A stretch of 38,755 nt of DNA from an uncultured Burkholderiales bacterium (lineage in GTDB: Bacteria; Pseudomonadota; Gammaproteobacteria; Burkholderiales; Burkholderiaceae_C). Under the pieces are notes generated by a model. The model searched no databases. It was not told where the DNA came from and saw only the letters and a list, made by a program, of their open reading frames with translations. This document shows positions 3,050-12,218 of this stretch, in pieces (positions within the stretch are counted from its first letter, which is position 1; the number at the start of each line of letters is the position of its first letter). The position numbers were made by a program, and so were the translations under genes. The stretch is from NCBI GenBank assembly GCA_903831655.1, contig CAIKYO010000053.1, positions 1-38,755 on the forward strand, given 5' to 3'.

Positions 3050-4342
3050 GTGTCTGTACCGCCCAACCCCAATCCCTCCCCACAGCCCCAGAGTTCTCTT
3101 GAGACTCAGCCAGAGCCAAAACTTCGCGATTTGTTCTCCAATGGCATCTTCATGCGCTACTGGTCTTCCAGAGTTGCAGCAGGCATTGCCTCTCAAATGT
3201 TCGAGGTTGCACTGGCTTGGCAAATGTACCAACTTACATCGAGCGCTTGGGACTTGGGATTGGTGGGTCTTTATCAATTCTTACCTGCGTTGGCTTTGAC
3301 TTTGGTGGCTGGGCATGTGGCCGATCGATTTCCCCGAGAGAAAATCATATTGCTCACTTGGATCTGTCAAGGTCTCGTGGTTTTACTGGTTTTGGTTGCA
3401 TTGCAAGAGGGCTTTTTAACTCGATCGCTCCTCTTGGGTGTTTCATTGGCTTTGGGTGTGTTCAGGGCTTTTCAAAGCACCGCTCAACAGGCCTTGCTAC
3501 CGAGTTTGGTTGATCACGATATTTTGCCCAGAGCGACTGCGCTCAACTCCATGGGCTACCAAGCCAGCGTGATGGCGGGGCCAGCGATGGGTGGATTGTT
3601 GTTTGCCATCAATGCATCCACGGTTTACTCCGCATGTTTTGTCCTTTATTTGTTGTCTGGCTTTTGGCTTTGGGGCTTAAAGAGCAAACCACTGGCTCAT
3701 GCCAATGAACCCGTGACGATTGAGTCTGTGTTGGCTGGGGTGGTCTTTGTTTGGAAGAAGAAAACCATTTTGGGCTCAATGTCATTGGACTTGTTTGCGG
3801 TTCTCTTAGGGGGTGCCACTGCACTTTTACCCATCTACGCAAAAGACATCTTGCACACAGGCGCTTGGGGTTTGGGGCTGCTGCGTGCTTCCCCTGCTGT
3901 GGGTGCCCTGATCATGTCTTTGTGCTTAGCGCATTGGCCACTGACTCACAAAGTGGGACAAAAACTTCTTCTGGCCGTGGGTGTATTTGGTTTGTCGATC
4001 ATCATTTTTGGACTCTCGCATGTCTTTTGGATTTCAATGATCGCTTTGATGGTGAGCGGAGCAGCGGACATGGTGAGTGTGGTGATTCGTCTGACCTTGG
4101 TGCAGATGGATACACCAGAGAGCATGAGGGGGCGTGTTTCTGCCGTCAATTCTGTCTTCATTGGTGCGAGCAATGAGTTGGGTGAATTTGAATCAGGTGC
4201 AACTGCCGCTTGGTTCGGGAGTGTGGAGTCGGTGATCATTGGTGGTTTGGGCACCATGTTGGTGGCAGTGATGTGGCGCTTTTTATTCAAAGAGCTCTAC
4301 CAGCGCGATCAGTTGCGAAATGACCCCGCGCCAAGCGCCTGA
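3050..4342 (+). CDS. MFS transporter (EntS-like family)
   Basis: 12-TM-like profile; 'GHVADRFPREKIILLT' loop motif; 'MRGRVSAVNSVFIGASNELGEFESG' typical of EntS-like MFS; GTG start. Confidence 0.85.
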   Translation: MSVPPNPNPSPQPQSSLETQPEPKLRDLFSNGIFMRYWSSRVAAGIASQMFEVALAWQMYQLTSSAWDLGLVGLYQFLPALALTLVAGHVADRFPREKIILLTWICQGLVVLLVLVALQEGFLTRSLLLGVSLALGVFRAFQSTAQQALLPSLVDHDILPRATALNSMGYQASVMAGPAMGGLLFAINASTVYSACFVLYLLSGFWLWGLKSKPLAHANEPVTIESVLAGVVFVWKKKTILGSMSLDLFAVLLGGATALLPIYAKDILHTGAWGLGLLRASPAVGALIMSLCLAHWPLTHKVGQKLLLAVGVFGLSIIIFGLSHVFWISMIALMVSGAADMVSVVIRLTLVQMDTPESMRGRVSAVNSVFIGASNELGEFESGATAAWFGSVESVIIGGLGTMLVAVMWRFLFKELYQRDQLRNDPAPSA

Positions 4343-4361
4343 TGCACATGGACCCAAGGCT

Positions 4362-5189
4362 CTAAGAAGCCCAAATCCTCGGTTGGGTCGTGGGCATGTG
4401 CCACCACGACTCACGCCACAATTTCCAAATGCGTTTTAACAAGTTGAGATTGGCCTCAACGTCTTTGCTGAGCACGCGCACCACGATCACTTGAGGGTTG
4501 GGGGAGGTAACGCCCGCCAAGAGTTCACTGTGAAGGGGTTCCATGGCCAACTTGGCCAAGTCTATGTGACGCGAGACCAATTGCACATCAAAGGGCGAGC
4601 CTTGCGCCATGACCAGGGTTCCCATGCATTTTTTACCCGCCAGACCCAGTGGGCTTTGAAGGAGTCGCTCATCGCTGGCATGAATGCTGGCTTTGTCTAG
4701 CCATGTTTGATGGATCTCAAAGTGTTGTGAGAAAACACCCTGTGTAAATGGCAAGTTCGCACCCGGCAATCCAAGTTGAGTCACATCCCAGGCCAACATC
4801 TGTGCTTGAGGCTCGAGTGTGAAATGCATGTGGTTCAGGGCGTGGCAGCGGTTGTAGGCGATGCTCTCCAAAGGCAACCACTCCAGTCTGGCGTGTTGCC
4901 CAACATGGGCCCTCATGCTTTGAGTTGCCAGCAAATCCTCAGACCCATAAAAGCGCGTTGCACCGGGAGTGGTCACCAGTGCATGACTGTGTTGGCCCAA
5001 CTCAAGTTCAATTTGTAAGGTGTCTCCCCCCACCAGTCCGCTTGGGGGGTGCACCAGCACGTTGTGACAAACGCTGGGGTCCTCGGGGTAGAGGCTTTTG
5101 AGAATTCGAAGCGGACCCTCGTGCGAGTCCCTCACCACCGTTTTAGGGGCTTGGAACTCGTACTTGAGGTTCAGTTTGGCCAGCCACAC
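4362..5189 (-). CDS. ureD: Urease accessory protein UreD
   Basis: 'HNVLVHPPSGLVGGDTLQIELELGQHSHALVTTPGATRFYGSE' and 'LEWLPLESIAYN' are characteristic of UreD; GTG start, 10 nt after the channel gene. Confidence 0.85.
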   Translation of the reverse strand: MWLAKLNLKYEFQAPKTVVRDSHEGPLRILKSLYPEDPSVCHNVLVHPPSGLVGGDTLQIELELGQHSHALVTTPGATRFYGSEDLLATQSMRAHVGQHARLEWLPLESIAYNRCHALNHMHFTLEPQAQMLAWDVTQLGLPGANLPFTQGVFSQHFEIHQTWLDKASIHASDERLLQSPLGLAGKKCMGTLVMAQGSPFDVQLVSRHIDLAKLAMEPLHSELLAGVTSPNPQVIVVRVLSKDVEANLNLLKRIWKLWRESWWHMPTTQPRIWAS

Positions 5190-5199
5190 AGATCAAATT

Positions 5200-6945
5200 T
5201 CAAGTCGGTGCTGTGGGTGTTGGAGGGGGCGTTGCAGAGTGAGGGGCCTCTTGTTGTAAAGACGCGGCATGCATTTGCGCCTCATGAGTTGCCGTTTGAG
5301 CCGCGAGCTCTTTGGGATTGGCGTCGTGGAGCAAATTCCAAAGTGCAAACTCGGTTTGGGTCAACCTGTCTTGAGCTCGGGCAATGGCCTCGAATTTCTC
5401 GCGGTCAGTCAATATGCCCAGTTGTCGAATTTGAGAAACAAGCCCTTTGTAGTGCTCCACTGCAATTTCGGGCAGCTCAGCAATTCGGTTGAGCGACATG
5501 TGAGCATGAGCCTCATCTCGTGTGTTTTGCTCCTCAATGGCGCGGTCCAAGAGACGCTCAATTTCATGTTCGCTCAGGTGCAAACGCTTGGCTTCACGTT
5601 TGATTTTTTCACTGTCCTCTTCCGAAATATTTCCAGCAGCCAAGATTTTGAACAACTCGTCTTTGAGCTCCTCTCGCTCAATGACCAATTGATCGCTGAA
5701 GGCAGAGGACAAAAGGGCTGCAGGGATGGCAAAAATACCAATGCCAATCAAGGCCAAGATGATGGTCATGAAGCGGCCTGCTGGCGTCATGGGGGTGATG
5801 TCACCGTAGCCCACAGAGGCCAGCGTGATCACAGCCCAATACACCGCTTGAGGAATGTTCTCGAACTTGTCGGGCTGCGCATCGTGTTCAAACAAGTAAC
5901 CTAGCGATGCGGTGAGCACCACCAAGAGCATCATCACAAAGCCAGCTGCCGCCATGACAGGCCATTCCCTGGCAATCACTTTGGAGAGAGTTGCTGTGGC
6001 ACCGGTGTAGCGTGTGAGTTTTAAGAGCCTGAGTAGCCTGAAGACTCGCAAAAAGCGCAGATCAAACAAGTGGTGCAAGAACACTTCCAAGAAGAAGGGG
6101 ACCACCGCCAAAAAGTCGATCACAGAAGATGTGTTCTTGGCTTGCTTGAGTCTTCCAATGATCCAGTGTTGGTATTGGGGCTCTTCCACACAACAATACA
6201 TGCGCATCACGTACTCAAGTGTGAAGATGGTCACAGCCACCGTGTCGAGCAGGATGAACTCAAGGTTCAAGATGTAGTGAATGCCTTGAACCGATTCCAA
6301 AATCACAGCGATCACGGAGATCACCACCCACACCACGATGAAGCTGTCAAAGAGGTCGTGCAACTCGCCACCAAAGTCGGAGGGAAAGACCAGGGCATGG
6401 ACCTTTTGTCTAAAGGTGCGGCCACGGTTGACTTCGATAAAGGTTTTGATGGCAGGAATCAACACCCTAAAGAGTTTGAGCATCCTGAGCAATCTGAGGA
6501 ATCGCAGCACACGCAAGTCAATGGGGATGAACGCCTGAAAGTAAAAGGGCGCCACCGCAAAGAAGTCAATCAATGCAAAGGGACTGAAGATGTAGCGCAA
6601 GCGAGGGAGCTTTTTGGTCGAAAACTCCTCGTCCTCGGGGGCCAAATAAAAGCGCAGGAAATACTCAACTGTGAAGACGATGACGGAGAACACGTCAAAA
6701 ATGTGGAAGTATCCCTTGTTGGGCTCAAATACAGCGGGAACGTGCTCAAAGAGCATGGCAAAGAGGTTGGCCAAAATCAAAAGGCCAATCCAATTTTCAA
6801 CTTCCTTGTGGTAATTGGTTTCGTACTTGGGGTTCAACAACCAGTTGTACAGAAACTTTCTAACCCCCAGGCCTGAGGGGATAACTTCTTCGTGAACATG
6901 GGTTTTGCCGCGAAGCAAAGCGCGCATTTGATCGACTGAGTCCAT
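5200..6945 (-). CDS. Voltage-gated K+ channel-like protein with two tandem voltage-sensor domains and one pore domain
   Basis: Two S1-S4 modules (S2 'FTVEYFLRFY' and 'FTLEYVMRMY', S4 'DLRVLRFLRLLRMLKLFR' and 'DLRFLRVFRLLRLLKLTR'), then S5-P-S6 with filter 'TLASVGYGD'; coiled-coil-like C-terminus. Confidence 0.9.
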   Translation of the reverse strand: MDSVDQMRALLRGKTHVHEEVIPSGLGVRKFLYNWLLNPKYETNYHKEVENWIGLLILANLFAMLFEHVPAVFEPNKGYFHIFDVFSVIVFTVEYFLRFYLAPEDEEFSTKKLPRLRYIFSPFALIDFFAVAPFYFQAFIPIDLRVLRFLRLLRMLKLFRVLIPAIKTFIEVNRGRTFRQKVHALVFPSDFGGELHDLFDSFIVVWVVISVIAVILESVQGIHYILNLEFILLDTVAVTIFTLEYVMRMYCCVEEPQYQHWIIGRLKQAKNTSSVIDFLAVVPFFLEVFLHHLFDLRFLRVFRLLRLLKLTRYTGATATLSKVIAREWPVMAAAGFVMMLLVVLTASLGYLFEHDAQPDKFENIPQAVYWAVITLASVGYGDITPMTPAGRFMTIILALIGIGIFAIPAALLSSAFSDQLVIEREELKDELFKILAAGNISEEDSEKIKREAKRLHLSEHEIERLLDRAIEEQNTRDEAHAHMSLNRIAELPEIAVEHYKGLVSQIRQLGILTDREKFEAIARAQDRLTQTEFALWNLLHDANPKELAAQTATHEAQMHAASLQQEAPHSATPPPTPTAPT

Positions 6946-6956
6946 GGTGTGTTTCC

Positions 6957-7694
6957 TTAGAATTCGATGTCAGCAACGTGAATGGGGTATGAGCCCTTGT
7001 CACAAATGGTCACGCTGATTTGAAGTTTTTGTTCAATGGAGTCACTCTCTTGCAAGTCCTCGAGAAAGGTGGGCGTTGGAGAGCCGGGAGGAGTGGGGCT
7101 GATTTTGTTGAAAACCATGGCGCCAGCCAAATTGATGTCTGAGGGGTCACACTTGTTGGCAAAGGTCAAAGGCCCGTTGGTAAAGGGGTTGTAGAGTTTG
7201 ACCAAAGGTCCATTCTCAGTGGTAAGGGCTTTTAAACATCCGCCCCAAGTCTTTGCCGTGCTGGCAGGTGCTGCTGCGGGGGCCTCTGATTTTGCATTTT
7301 CTGCAGGTGCTTCTGCGCTGGGTTGAGCAGCAGCTTGTGTGGCCATCGCACTGGATTTGTCCGCCACCACCTCGCTCTCGCCTTCTCCCAGCGCTTTCTC
7401 AGAGTTCAAAGCCTGGGGTTCCTCTGTCTTGGGAGGTGGCATGAGGGTGTTGGGGCCACCACAGGCCGCAACTTCAAAATCGGTGTCCATTCTTTTGGCG
7501 GAGGCTTGGGTGAACCAATTGGCAAAGGCCTCACCATTTTCTTTTGAGATCTCCGTTTTCATGCCCTCTTCGTAAGAGAGCACTCCCACGTAGGCTGTGC
7601 CCACGATCACCAAGACGATGGAGCATAAAAACAAAAAATCCGAAAAAAAGAAAGTTTTCGAATTTTTGGGGTTGCTGTTGTTTGGGTTATCCAT
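6957..7694 (-). CDS. Hypothetical single-pass membrane protein with Ala/Glu/Pro-rich linker and Cys-containing C-terminal domain
   Basis: One hydrophobic segment 'FFFSDFLFLCSIVLVIVGTAYVGVL', low-complexity linker, four Cys in the C-terminal part; 11 nt upstream of the channel gene on the same strand. Confidence 0.7.
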   Translation of the reverse strand: MDNPNNSNPKNSKTFFFSDFLFLCSIVLVIVGTAYVGVLSYEEGMKTEISKENGEAFANWFTQASAKRMDTDFEVAACGGPNTLMPPPKTEEPQALNSEKALGEGESEVVADKSSAMATQAAAQPSAEAPAENAKSEAPAAAPASTAKTWGGCLKALTTENGPLVKLYNPFTNGPLTFANKCDPSDINLAGAMVFNKISPTPPGSPTPTFLEDLQESDSIEQKLQISVTICDKGSYPIHVADIEF

Positions 7695-7978
7695 GTGTAT
7701 TCCAAATGGGCAAAGGTGAGGAGGTCCTGGACTGATTCAATGAAGAACAGGTTCGACAAGGAAAGGTGAGCAACAAAGAGACGGCCGACCGATGGCCCCT
7801 CAAAAATCAAAGACCGATTCTATGGAAAAAAACCGCTTTTCCATCAAAAATGTAAGATTAAGTGTCTTATTTTGACCTTCAGGTCTCGTAAAACCAGTAA
7901 CGCTCTTAATTGCGTTGCAGCTCGTGGTTCAATGGCAGAGAACAAATCGAGAACAACATTGAGAGGAGTCGCTCTTGA

Positions 7979-8746
7979 TCAATGGTTTTGAGATCCGCGG
8001 TGTGCCCAAGCGGTGGTGTGATTTTCCACGAAGCTAAAGAGTTCGTACATGACCATTGCCATGGCACCCACCACCACCAAGCCTGCAAAGGCCAAACCCA
8101 TTTGCATGGCAGAGCCAGCCGAGATGAGCAAGTAGCCAATGCCCTCATTGGCAGCGGTCATCTCAGACACGGTGGTGCCTACAAAAGCCAAGGTGATGGC
8201 CACCTTCAATGAGGCAAAGAAGTAGGGCATTGAGCGGGGTAGACCGACTTTGATCAGCACGTCCCACCTTTTGGCGCCAAGCACTCTGAGCACATCTTCC
8301 AGTTCGGGCTCGAGGGTGGCAAGACCGGTGGCGATGTTGACGGTGATGGGGAAGAAGCTGATCAAAAAAGCGGTCAAAATGGCCGGTCCAATTCCAATGC
8401 CAAACCACACAACCAAGATAGGAACAAATGCAGCTTTTGGCAATGCATTGAAGGCCGTCATGAGGGGGTAAGCTGCGGCATAAGCCAAGCGTGAGCTTCC
8501 AATCACAAAGCCCAACAGCACGCCCACCACGATGGCAATGCCAAATCCAGCCATGGTGACCCAAAAGGTCCTCCAAGCATGAGCGGCAATGACCCCTTTG
8601 AACTCAATGAGTTGAGAGAGGATGCGAAGGGGGCTGGGAAAGATGAATTCAGAGACATCAAACGCAGAGCAAACCAATTGCCACAGCAAAATGGTGGCAA
8701 TCAATAGGATCCAGGGAGAGCTTTGCTCGAGTTTCTTGGAATTCAT
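7979..8746 (-). CDS. ABC transporter permease (SsuC/TauC/ThiX-type)
   Basis: BPD_transp_1-like 'NALPKAAFVPILVVWFGIGIGPAILTAFLISFFPITVNIATGL'. Confidence 0.9.
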   Translation of the reverse strand: MNSKKLEQSSPWILLIATILLWQLVCSAFDVSEFIFPSPLRILSQLIEFKGVIAAHAWRTFWVTMAGFGIAIVVGVLLGFVIGSSRLAYAAAYPLMTAFNALPKAAFVPILVVWFGIGIGPAILTAFLISFFPITVNIATGLATLEPELEDVLRVLGAKRWDVLIKVGLPRSMPYFFASLKVAITLAFVGTTVSEMTAANEGIGYLLISAGSAMQMGLAFAGLVVVGAMAMVMYELFSFVENHTTAWAHRGSQNH

Positions 8747-8778
8747 GGTTCGTGTAGGTGCAGTTTGTTTTTTTGAGT

Positions 8779-9603
8779 TCAGGTGGTCAAGGGGGTATTG
8801 GAGCGAATGGCACCAATGTGACCCCTGAGCTCATGAACAATGTCAGCGAATTCGGGCGTATAGGTGAGTTCCAAATCTCTGGGTCTGGGCAACTCAATTT
8901 CCCGCCTGACGATGAAACGTCCTGGGCTCTTGGACATCACGTATACGGTATCAGCTAAAAACACGGACTCTCTTAAGTCGTGGGTGACCAAAATCACGTT
9001 AAAACGTTGTTCGGTCCACAAGTCCCTCAAAATGCACCACAACTCCTCTCGGGTGAATGCATCCAAAGCTCCAAAGGGCTCGTCTAACAAAAGCATTTTG
9101 GGCTCGTGAATCAGGGCTCTACAAATGCTGGCCCTTTGTTGCATGCCGCCCGAGAGTTGCCAAGGGTACTTTCTCTCGTAGCCTGCCAAGCCCACGCGCT
9201 TTAAGAGTTCACAGGCACGGTGCTCGTATTCTGCTTTTTTCTCTTTGAATTGCTCTCTGTAGGGCTCGACAATCTCAAGGGGCAAGAGCACATTGTCAAG
9301 GGTGGTTCTCCAAGGCAAAAGGGAAGGCGCTTGAAAGGCCATGCCTGAGATCTTCAGAGGTCCAGTGACCTCCTTGCCCTCCACCTTGATCACACCTTTT
9401 GAGGGACGTCTAAGGCCCGTGGTGAGTTTCATGAAAGTGGATTTTCCGCAACCCGAAGGTCCCACCAAGGCGATGAACTCGCCAGATTTGACCTCCAAAT
9501 TGATGGCCTCAACGGCAAACTGTTGCTGGGCCAGCAGTTCTTCGTTGTAGGCCAGCCATACGTCCTGGAACGATACGAAGCTATCCTGAGGGGATGAGCT
9601 CAT
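8779..9603 (-). CDS. ABC transporter ATP-binding protein (SsuB/TauB-type)
   Basis: Walker A 'GPSGCGKST', signature 'LSGGMQQR', Walker B 'MLLLDEPFGALD'; start ATG at 9603 overlaps the SBP stop (ATGA). Confidence 0.93.
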   Translation of the reverse strand: MSSSPQDSFVSFQDVWLAYNEELLAQQQFAVEAINLEVKSGEFIALVGPSGCGKSTFMKLTTGLRRPSKGVIKVEGKEVTGPLKISGMAFQAPSLLPWRTTLDNVLLPLEIVEPYREQFKEKKAEYEHRACELLKRVGLAGYERKYPWQLSGGMQQRASICRALIHEPKMLLLDEPFGALDAFTREELWCILRDLWTEQRFNVILVTHDLRESVFLADTVYVMSKSPGRFIVRREIELPRPRDLELTYTPEFADIVHELRGHIGAIRSNTPLTT

Positions 9604-10634
9604 TTGAGTTTGGGTAAAACGTTGAGTTCTTTGGCGCTTGGGAGGTACGCAGGTGTCCAAACGGCATCAGGGTTGACACGGGTTTTGGTCGCAAAGGCGT
9701 CAGACACTTGGCTGGCCATCAGGCTCAAACGAGGCATGTTGACTTGGCCAAACCCCTCAGCGTGTGCGTCAGGTGAGTTGATCACGGTGTTCAGTGCCAA
9801 CTGCAAACGGCGAACTTCAAGGGGAACATTGATGATGCCATCACGTGCTTTGACGGTTTCAATGGCTTTTTCTTGGTTTGCAAAAATGTCTTTCATACCC
9901 AGGGCAAAGGCTCTGAGAAAAGCCTTGGCAGCAGCGGGATTTTCTTTCAAGAACTTGGGTGACGCGATGATGGCGTTGCCGTAGAGTTTCACGCCATAGT
10001 CGGGGTACTGGAGCACCACAACGTCGTCGGCTTTGACGCCACGCGCTTCAATGTTCAAGAGTGAGGTGAATGTGAATCCAGTGATCGCATCCAAGTCGCC
10101 TTTGACCAACATGGTCTCACGCAATGTGGGATCCATGGCCGTCCAAGTCACGTCGGTGATGTTATTGGCTTTGGCAAACAGGGGGAAGGCTCTGCGGCCA
10201 GCATCAAAGACTGGCGCTCCGAGTTTTTTGCCGATGAGGTCAGAAGGTTTTTTGATGCCAGACTTTTTAAGCGCCATGACCGATGCAGGCGTGTTGTTGT
10301 AGACCATCATGATGGCCACTGGTTTGTTGGGGGCGTCGGGATTGTTGGCGTGGAACTCCATGAGTGAGGCCAAGTCAGCAAAACCCATGTCGTAAGAGCC
10401 AGAAGCCACGCGGGTCACGGTTCCGCCTGAGCCGTTTCCGGTGTCCACGGTCACGTCCAACTTCTCGCTCTTGAAGTAGCCCTTTGATTCAGGAACTAAA
10501 AACAAGGCTGCAGGGCCTTCAAATCTCCAGTCGAGTTGGAATTTAACGGGTGTGTTTTGAGCCATTGATGCCGCACCGGTCATCGTGAGGGCAAGTGCCA
10601 AGGTGGCTCTTAGTTTTGAAAAATGCAATTTCAT
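9600..10634 (-). CDS. NMT1/THI5-like ABC transporter substrate-binding protein
   Basis: 'VKFQLDWRFEGPAALFLVPESKGYFKSEKLDVTVDTGNGSGGTVTRVASGSYDMGFADLASL'; signal peptide; ATG at 10634 with GGAG upstream. Confidence 0.9.
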   Translation of the reverse strand: MKLHFSKLRATLALALTMTGAASMAQNTPVKFQLDWRFEGPAALFLVPESKGYFKSEKLDVTVDTGNGSGGTVTRVASGSYDMGFADLASLMEFHANNPDAPNKPVAIMMVYNNTPASVMALKKSGIKKPSDLIGKKLGAPVFDAGRRAFPLFAKANNITDVTWTAMDPTLRETMLVKGDLDAITGFTFTSLLNIEARGVKADDVVVLQYPDYGVKLYGNAIIASPKFLKENPAAAKAFLRAFALGMKDIFANQEKAIETVKARDGIINVPLEVRRLQLALNTVINSPDAHAEGFGQVNMPRLSLMASQVSDAFATKTRVNPDAVWTPAYLPSAKELNVLPKLK

Positions 10635-10667
10635 GACTGACTCCAAAGTTTTTTAATTAAACATCTC

Positions 10668-10684
10668 AAGCAATTTCGGTGCCC
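10668..10684 (-). promoter_or_regulatory. Sigma-54 (-24/-12) promoter before the NMT1-type ABC operon
   Basis: Minus-strand GGGCACC-GAAA-TTGCTT with exact GG-N10-GC spacing; predicted +1 about 10658, start codon 10634. Confidence 0.75.
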
Positions 10685-10801
10685 AATGGTGACGTACAAG
10701 CAAGGCTCATTGATTCAAAGTGGTGCATTGGGAAGTCCAATGCAGCTTTTGTGTCCTAGCCTTTGAACTGAAGAATCCAAAACGGTGCGTTGATTTTGGA
10801 T

Positions 10802-10818
10802 TGATCCAGTTTGGTGCC
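10802..10818. promoter_or_regulatory. NtrC-like site upstream of the sigma-54 promoter
   Basis: TGATCCA-GTT-TGGTGCC, 11/14 arm matches to remembered NtrC consensus TGCACYA-N3-TRGTGCA; about -150. Confidence 0.4.
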
Positions 10819-10874
10819 ATTTCCAGTTTAGCGCAATACTGGGGAGAGATTTTGCACTAAATTTGGAAGCTTTT

Positions 10875-12218
10875 TTAGTTTCTGAGCTTGGGGTTGCTCA
10901 TTAAGTCGTAAAGTGTTCTGGCAACCACCTGGGTTGCTTTGAGCAAATCACTGAGCAGGAGTCGTTCATCGGCCCGTTTGGCCCGAGATTCAAGGACGGT
11001 CCTTGGGCCTGCCCCATAGATCACACCGGGCACGCTTTGTTCTGCGTACAGGCGCACATCGGTGTACAGGGGTGTACCAACCGCAGGGATCGTTTCACCA
11101 AAAATGGCGTGAGCGTGTTTTTGCAGTCCTTCGATCAGGGGAGCTTGGGCCGCTTGGGGCTTCATGGACTCGGCCAAAAGCATGCGTTTGATCTCTACTT
11201 TGATGGGCTCTTGGTTGGGGTGCAACGCGTTGAAGTGCTCAATGGCTTGTTGAATGGTTGCGCGAATGGACTGCTCAACCGCACTTGAGTTTTCCTCCGG
11301 AATCATGCGTCGATCGAGTTTGAAGCTCACTCTCCCGGGCACCACATTCGTGTTGGTGCCCCCTTGAATGGTCCCCACATTGAGATAGGGGTGTTTGATA
11401 CCTGCAATCTCAGAGGAGATGGCTTTGTAATCCTCGTTCAAGGCGTACAAAGCGTTTAGAACATGTGTGGTGGCTTGAAGTGCATCAGAGCCCGATTGCG
11501 GAATGGCCGCGTGTGCCATCTTGCCTTGAAGGGTCACCTCCATTTGTAAGCAACCGTTGTGAGCGGTCACGACTTCGTAGCTAAAGCCGGCGGCTAACAT
11601 CAAGTTGGGCTTTGTGAGTTGGTGTTTGAGTAGCCATCCAGGTCCAAGTTCCCCCCCAAACTCTTCGTCATAGGTGAAGTGCAACTCGACTTGCCCCAAG
11701 GGAGGGGGAGACGAGCTTTGTCCGCTAGAAGTGGCGAGTGTCTCACTCAAATGCTTCAAGGCTCTTAGCGCAAAGGTAAATGTGGAAAAATCAGATTTGC
11801 TCACTGCACTGGCTTTGCCGTATAAGTAGCCCTCTTCGATTTGTGCGCCATAGGGGTCGTGTTCCCACCCCTCGCCAGGTGGGACGACGTCCCCATGAGC
11901 GTTCATCGCCAGTGTGATGCCCCAGGGGGATTTCAGCTGAAGTGCATCTAGGGATTGGGGACCTTGGGAGCTGAAACCTTGGCGAACAATCAAATTGGTG
12001 ATGGATTCAAGTCCTGCAGCTTTGACCACTTCATTTGGAACGGGGTGATGTTCAGCAGAAAATCCCATGTCCTTGAGCATCAAAGCCGTTTGCTCAGCAT
12101 GAGGCGCATTTTTGCCAGGAGGTGTGTCCGTGGGTATTCTCACCAAAGCTTGCAAAAATTTCACCTGTTCTTCAAAGTGATTTTGAACCCATTGGTCCAA
12201 TTGTTCGTAAGGAGTCAT
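10875..12218 (-). CDS. M20-family metallohydrolase (ArgE/DapE-like), physiological substrate unknown
   Basis: 'MNAHGDVVPPGEGWEHDPYGAQIEEGYLYGK', 'TYDEEFGGELGPGWLL', 'GKMAHAAIPQSGSDAL'; 8 nt downstream of the allantoate amidohydrolase fusion gene. Confidence 0.85.
   Translation of the reverse strand: MTPYEQLDQWVQNHFEEQVKFLQALVRIPTDTPPGKNAPHAEQTALMLKDMGFSAEHHPVPNEVVKAAGLESITNLIVRQGFSSQGPQSLDALQLKSPWGITLAMNAHGDVVPPGEGWEHDPYGAQIEEGYLYGKASAVSKSDFSTFTFALRALKHLSETLATSSGQSSSPPPLGQVELHFTYDEEFGGELGPGWLLKHQLTKPNLMLAAGFSYEVVTAHNGCLQMEVTLQGKMAHAAIPQSGSDALQATTHVLNALYALNEDYKAISSEIAGIKHPYLNVGTIQGGTNTNVVPGRVSFKLDRRMIPEENSSAVEQSIRATIQQAIEHFNALHPNQEPIKVEIKRMLLAESMKPQAAQAPLIEGLQKHAHAIFGETIPAVGTPLYTDVRLYAEQSVPGVIYGAGPRTVLESRAKRADERLLLSDLLKATQVVARTLYDLMSNPKLRN

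Follow-up and report, generated by a model that had tools for sequence, protein, structure and literature searches.

A Burkholderiales potassium-channel gene encoding two voltage-sensor domains ahead of a single pore, and its linkage to a gene for a putative membrane-anchored partner

The window analysed here, a 38,755-nucleotide stretch of DNA from an uncultured freshwater Burkholderiales bacterium, carries on its minus strand a gene for a putative K+ channel of 581 amino acids (5200..6945). The open reading frame (ORF) begins with an ATG at 6945 and ends at 5200; an AGGA that resembles a ribosome-binding site, as read from the sequence, lies 8 nt 5' of this codon (6954..6957, minus strand). 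Directly upstream on the same strand, and separated from the channel gene by 11 nt, is acc (6957..7694), which encodes a 245-residue protein with a single transmembrane (TM) segment and a predicted periplasmic beta domain, and which is linked to the channel across relatives. The locus in the window comprises only acc and this channel, here termed VV1, and is followed by ureD. Both the linkage of acc to the channel and the channel-gene islands found in relatives are new findings, missed by the initial annotation of this DNA.

The channel polypeptide consists of two complete voltage-sensor domains (VSDs), one pore domain and a tail, all encoded on the minus strand. VSD1 spans residues 44-166 (6448..6816) and includes a conserved S4 charge ladder composed of R145, R148, R151, R154, K157 and R160 (6466..6513). 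A conserved linker (residues 167-195; 6361..6447), in which N173, R176, R179 and H183 are invariant, leads to VSD2 (residues 196-318; 5992..6360), whose own S4 ladder runs from R297 to R312. The pore domain (residues 319-424; 5674..5991) contains S5, the pore helix, the selectivity filter and the start of S6, and the remainder of the chain (residues 425-581; 5203..5673) forms the end of S6 and a C-terminal helical tail. The filter, TLASVGYGD, occupies residues 374-382 (5800..5826), as annotated initially; it is of the TVGYG type expected of K+ channels, sits in an S5-P-S6 arrangement, and is retained in nearly all two-sensor ORFs. The two sensors repeat one another closely. The S2 motifs FTVEYFLRFY (91-100) and FTLEYVMRMY (241-250) and the S3 motifs IDFFAVAPFYFQAF (126-139) and IDFLAVVPFFLEVF (276-289) are where the initial annotation placed them, and its count of 13 identities in 18 positions between D143-R160 and D295-R312 was reproduced by eye. 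Its repeat spacing of 150 residues is correct for S2 and S3, but the S4 segments are offset by 152, the result of a two-residue insertion between S3 and S4.

Several comparisons bear out the central claim of that annotation, namely that two VSDs precede one pore. The Pfam search that it called for returned two Ion_trans stretches and a single Ion_trans_2 match (residues 339-416, E = 4e-18). A local alignment of VSD1 with VSD2 scored 168, whereas 2000 shuffles gave a mean of 30.9 (sd 5.4, maximum 63; z = 25.5), and BLAST of the pair alone gave an E-value of 2e-11. In an AlphaFold2 model of the monomer, which was based on an alignment of 50 homologues, region 1 is predicted to form the four helices of a VSD (S1, 46-67; S2, 77-104; S3, 122-139; and a long S4, 144-172). 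A second set follows (193-217, 220-254, 272-290 and 296-311), and then S5 (315-351), the pore helix (364-380) and S6 (388-436). Both VSDs have pLDDT values of about 75-90. The values for the pore are about 50-65 (overall pTM, 0.54), which may be expected for a monomer model of a tetramer. Foldseek searches with the whole chain matched Kv channels at low TM-scores; thus, a profile search with VSD1 was used instead for fold assignment. This profile (49 sequences) matches VSDs of known structure, with the bacterial Nav channel 4bgn first (1.4e-8), followed by Kv4 and KCNQ2. Further, the order VSD1-VSD2-pore-tail is present in 111 ORFs among the fetched loci, a few of which overlap, such that this number is not one of independent genomes.

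From about residue 196 to 424, the protein is an ordinary six-TM Kv channel of the type represented by bacterial Kv channels of the KvAP kind and by KCNQ and Kv1-Kv4, having S1-S4 with a full charge ladder, S5-P-S6 and a GYG filter. Indeed, its best sequence matches in the PDB are KCNQ4 and KCNQ5, and these cover only residues 201-423 or so, i.e., VSD2 and the pore. It differs from the canonical channels in possessing an additional complete N-terminal VSD, hence ten TM segments rather than six, and two VSDs where Kv channels have one per pore domain. Judged by all the other sequence criteria applied, it is a voltage-gated K+ channel. Two-pore channels (TPCs) and the four-domain Nav and Cav channels also have more than one VSD per polypeptide, each VSD being followed by its own pore part. 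The present protein, by contrast, has two successive VSDs ahead of one pore domain, and only one pore stretch is found in place of the two VSD-pore repeats of a TPC. VSD1 is like the VSDs of Hv1 and the voltage-sensing phosphatases in that no pore directly follows it, but further along the chain come another VSD and a K+ pore, whereas an Hv1 chain has no pore domain at all; the position of the Hv1 S1 Asp is occupied by Asn. To our knowledge, channels carry one voltage sensor per pore domain. Phrase searches of the open-access literature, a method that cannot prove absence, found no description of a VSD-VSD-pore layout, in agreement with the initial statement that no characterised family has it.

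The features expected of a Kv sensor (Arg or Lys at each third residue of S4, a Glu in S2 and an Asp in S3) are found in both VSDs, invariant or almost invariant, across the 50 homologues. In VSD1, E94 and D127, the S2 and S3 acids noted at the outset as expected in a working sensor, are invariant in these sequences, as are R98, R151, R154, K157 and R160; F91, R145 and R148 are at least 90% conserved. The mean pairwise identity of VSD1 (0.66) is close to that of VSD2 (0.69), with the pore at 0.83 and the tail at 0.47. When the window is compared to one relative (L035), VSD1 has undergone no amino-acid changes (dN of 0 at a dS of 0.71), and dN/dS is 0.03-0.05 in the comparisons with two others (L036 and L037). 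These sequence data support a K+ channel with a genuine VSD-VSD-pore layout, in which strong purifying selection acts on VSD1 and has kept it a complete sensor. The two-sensor genes at L012:1366-3057, L030:1489-3168, L207 and L212 are broken by one in-frame stop that falls between domains or else by a frame break; acc is still upstream of them, and they are either pseudogenes or products of sequence errors.

The Acc protein has one hydrophobic peak. In its predicted structure, a helix (residues 17-65) containing the sole TM segment is joined by a disordered linker to a confidently modelled C-terminal beta domain that extends to residue 244. Four of its cysteines are invariant. No named family in Pfam or NCBIfam matches Acc at the curated cut-offs, and a fold search against the PDB returned no match at E <= 0.001. 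An acc homologue immediately precedes 96 of the 110 two-sensor genes with room for one (94 directly upstream, plus two whose open frame extends further upstream); besides the VV2 genes described below, nine two-sensor loci have no recognisable acc. Among 61 genomes of the genus, 48 have both acc and the channel and 11 have neither (Fisher p = 3e-10). The two exceptions are only apparent, as both are due to contig ends: in G012 the channel starts at the first base of its contig, and in G022 the contig terminates 92 nt past acc. G224 was the sole other genome of the order-wide draw with an acc match; this match is weak (5.6e-5), yet the gene is directly 5' of the two-sensor channel of that genome. 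The single-sensor relatives of the channel (L002, L029, L117 and L205), which are homologous in VSD2, pore and tail and have no VSD1, have no recognisable acc either. Like the KCNE and DPP proteins, Acc has a single TM segment, is tied to a Kv channel and has a domain predicted to reside outside the cytoplasm. Its tie to the channel is one of genetic linkage, and no relation to these proteins in sequence or fold was detected. We infer from its linkage and co-occurrence with the channel that Acc is probably an auxiliary subunit that would physically bind it. At one locus (L046:327-2936), a MotB gene identified by Pfam, preceded by an ORF that by eye is MotA-like, lies directly 5' of acc and the two-sensor channel.

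In the genomes sampled, the two-sensor channel is confined to Burkholderiales and mostly to one genus. In a first draw, 24 of 25 genomes of this genus, including that of the window, had matches at E 1e-40, the majority of them two-sensor; in a draw of 61 genomes, the acc-linked VV1 was found in 49. Full two-sensor matches outside the genus were limited to G1207, from the same family, and to G224 and G305, from another Burkholderiales family; the copy in G1122, also outside the genus, is frame-broken. The whole-genome survey covered Pseudomonadota, and its 369 class-level and 299 phylum-level genomes yielded no two-sensor match except in the genome of the window itself; the other matches at these levels start at profile position 140 or beyond, that is, from the linker or VSD2 onwards. 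Named contigs with matches include records of Limnohabitans, Polaromonas, Rhodoferax and Ramlibacter. In plasmid and viral collections, the matches to VSD1 were partial only.

In several relatives, acc and the channel head an island of ion-channel genes. The fullest version, present in G1266, G1257, G1129 and G009 (L272, L274, L276 and L277), begins with acc and VV1. Next come two six-TM Kv-like genes, KvB (filter TITSGYGN) and KvC (filter TI(I/V)SGWGN), and then a gene for a membrane protein, 190-224 residues long. The last two genes, the second of which begins 4 nt before the first one ends, encode a sodium channel of the NaChBac type with the filter TLESW and another two-sensor channel, termed VV2. 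In L272, these seven genes occupy positions 3777-11265. Other versions occur in G1264 and G1030 (L273 and L275), where acc and VV1 are joined by the two Kv genes and VV2 and ORF tiling listed no sodium channel, and in G1258 (L281), where the two Kv genes accompany acc and VV1. The island VV2 genes retain VSD1, with Glu instead of Arg as the first S4 residue, and are not accompanied by acc. Thus, acc tracks the VV1 branch and not VSD1 as such. Two VV2-type two-sensor genes adjoin at L280:2571-5806, 2 nt apart. The KvC filter (TIISGWGN at L272:7021-7977, and its counterparts in homologues) has a tryptophan where K+ channels usually carry Tyr or Phe; judged by this sequence, KvC may possibly be a silent or non-selective subunit. 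A weak TerB-like helical tail, below the Pfam cut-off (E = 0.007), is present at the C-terminus of one KvC (L045:5591-6547), and residues 435-475 or so of the window's channel resemble it by eye.

How might a channel of this kind work? We lean, with modest confidence, towards a voltage-gated K+ channel in which VSD1 is a second selected sensor that steers gating, probably with Acc as a subunit. VSD1 would be a complete extra sensor placed ahead of an ordinary bacterial Kv channel (VSD2, pore and helical tail). If assembled in the manner of Kv channels, the protein would be a tetramer with eight sensors, the four inner ones (VSD2) being wired to the pore via the S4-S5 linker and the four outer ones contributed by VSD1. 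VSD1 is most likely a voltage sensor in its own right, and its movement could be relayed through the conserved segment that joins S4 to the linker (P164, N173, R176 and R179), thereby shifting the voltage range or the steepness of gating. In the VV1 branch, the co-encoded, membrane-anchored periplasmic protein Acc would probably serve as the auxiliary subunit. A bolder version, which we advance tentatively, is that the outer four of the eight sensors are modulated by the periplasmic subunit, and that the sodium-channel-containing islands of relatives may constitute an electrical-signalling module.

The conservation of VSD1 does not speak for sensing alone, since the same conservation would also be expected if VSD1 had a docking or assembly role. 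VSD1 could have ceased to steer the pore and could instead anchor Acc or a neighbouring channel in the membrane. The tight linkage and co-occurrence of acc, its absence from around the single-sensor relatives, and the further channel genes that adjoin in many relatives all fit such a role. Still, a pure dock would need no invariant S2 Glu, S3 Asp or inner S4 charges, and the VV2 channels keep VSD1 where there is no Acc to hold. We consider docking unlikely, albeit worthy of serious consideration. Much less probable is the notion, also raised in the initial annotation, that VSD1 is a permeation pathway beside the K+ pore for protons or an omega current. In favour of this notion, isolated VSDs can conduct, as Hv1 does, and VSD1 lacks its own pore. 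We take the S1 Asp of Hv1 (D112 in the human protein) to be its proton filter; its counterpart in VSD1, aligned by the S1 Glu (E67) seven residues further on, is N60, an invariant Asn. Because of this residue and of an S4 ladder that runs from R145 to R160 without a gap, a proton or omega pathway looks unlikely. The idea that VSD1 is a functionless remnant or an assembly artefact deserves the least credence of all: the single-sensor relatives do manage without VSD1, and some two-sensor copies have in-frame stops or frame breaks, but the full-layout ORFs, together with the finding of this layout in genomes that are near-complete and consist of one or two contigs, rule out misassembly or a frameshift fusion, and decay is rejected because VSD1 is about as conserved as VSD2 and shows no replacements against L035 at the synonymous divergence given above.

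With two selected sensors arranged one after the other ahead of a single pore, this natural channel offers a test of whether a VSD without a pore can steer another sensor or a pore, a question that bears on how VSDs became modular. Acc, for its part, is a candidate for a bacterial equivalent of the Kv auxiliary subunits. Further, the islands, which combine up to four K+-channel-like genes with a NaChBac-type sodium channel, represent a concrete genetic system in which the bacterial use of voltage-gated channels can be addressed; the genera concerned include some, Limnohabitans among them, of which members have been cultured.

The origin of the second sensor was addressed with a tree of 58 VSD rows, 300 bootstrap trees and AU tests on the alternatives. 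The VSD1 sequences form one clade (100/99), and VSD2 and the single-sensor relatives form another (100/99; 299 of 300 bootstrap trees). This result points to an origin that is old and probably a single event. The initial annotation had proposed an intragenic VSD duplication, and the tree lends this proposal no backing: VSD1 is sister to the clade of VSD2 and single-sensor relatives in 21 of 300 bootstrap trees (AU p = 0.45), and the grouping is neither supported nor rejected. A recent duplication inside the channel lineage is disfavoured by the tree, which is compatible with an old duplication as well as with the fusion of channel genes. We regard it as an even question whether the layout arose when two adjacent Kv genes fused and the first pore was lost, a scenario that concerns origin rather than function. 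In its favour, tandem Kv genes adjoin the channel in many relatives, and the VSD1 profile gives about 90-117 bits with the sensors of other bacterial Kv channels and about 80 with the VSD2 of two-sensor channels. Yet the tree does not prefer a grouping of VSD1 with the neighbouring single-sensor channels to one with VSD2: the former occurs in 24 of 300 bootstrap trees and is likewise not rejected (AU p = 0.49). A first, quick tree had put VSD1 near KvB and KvC; this placement was dropped when a constrained search on a reduced set of sequences gave a better tree.
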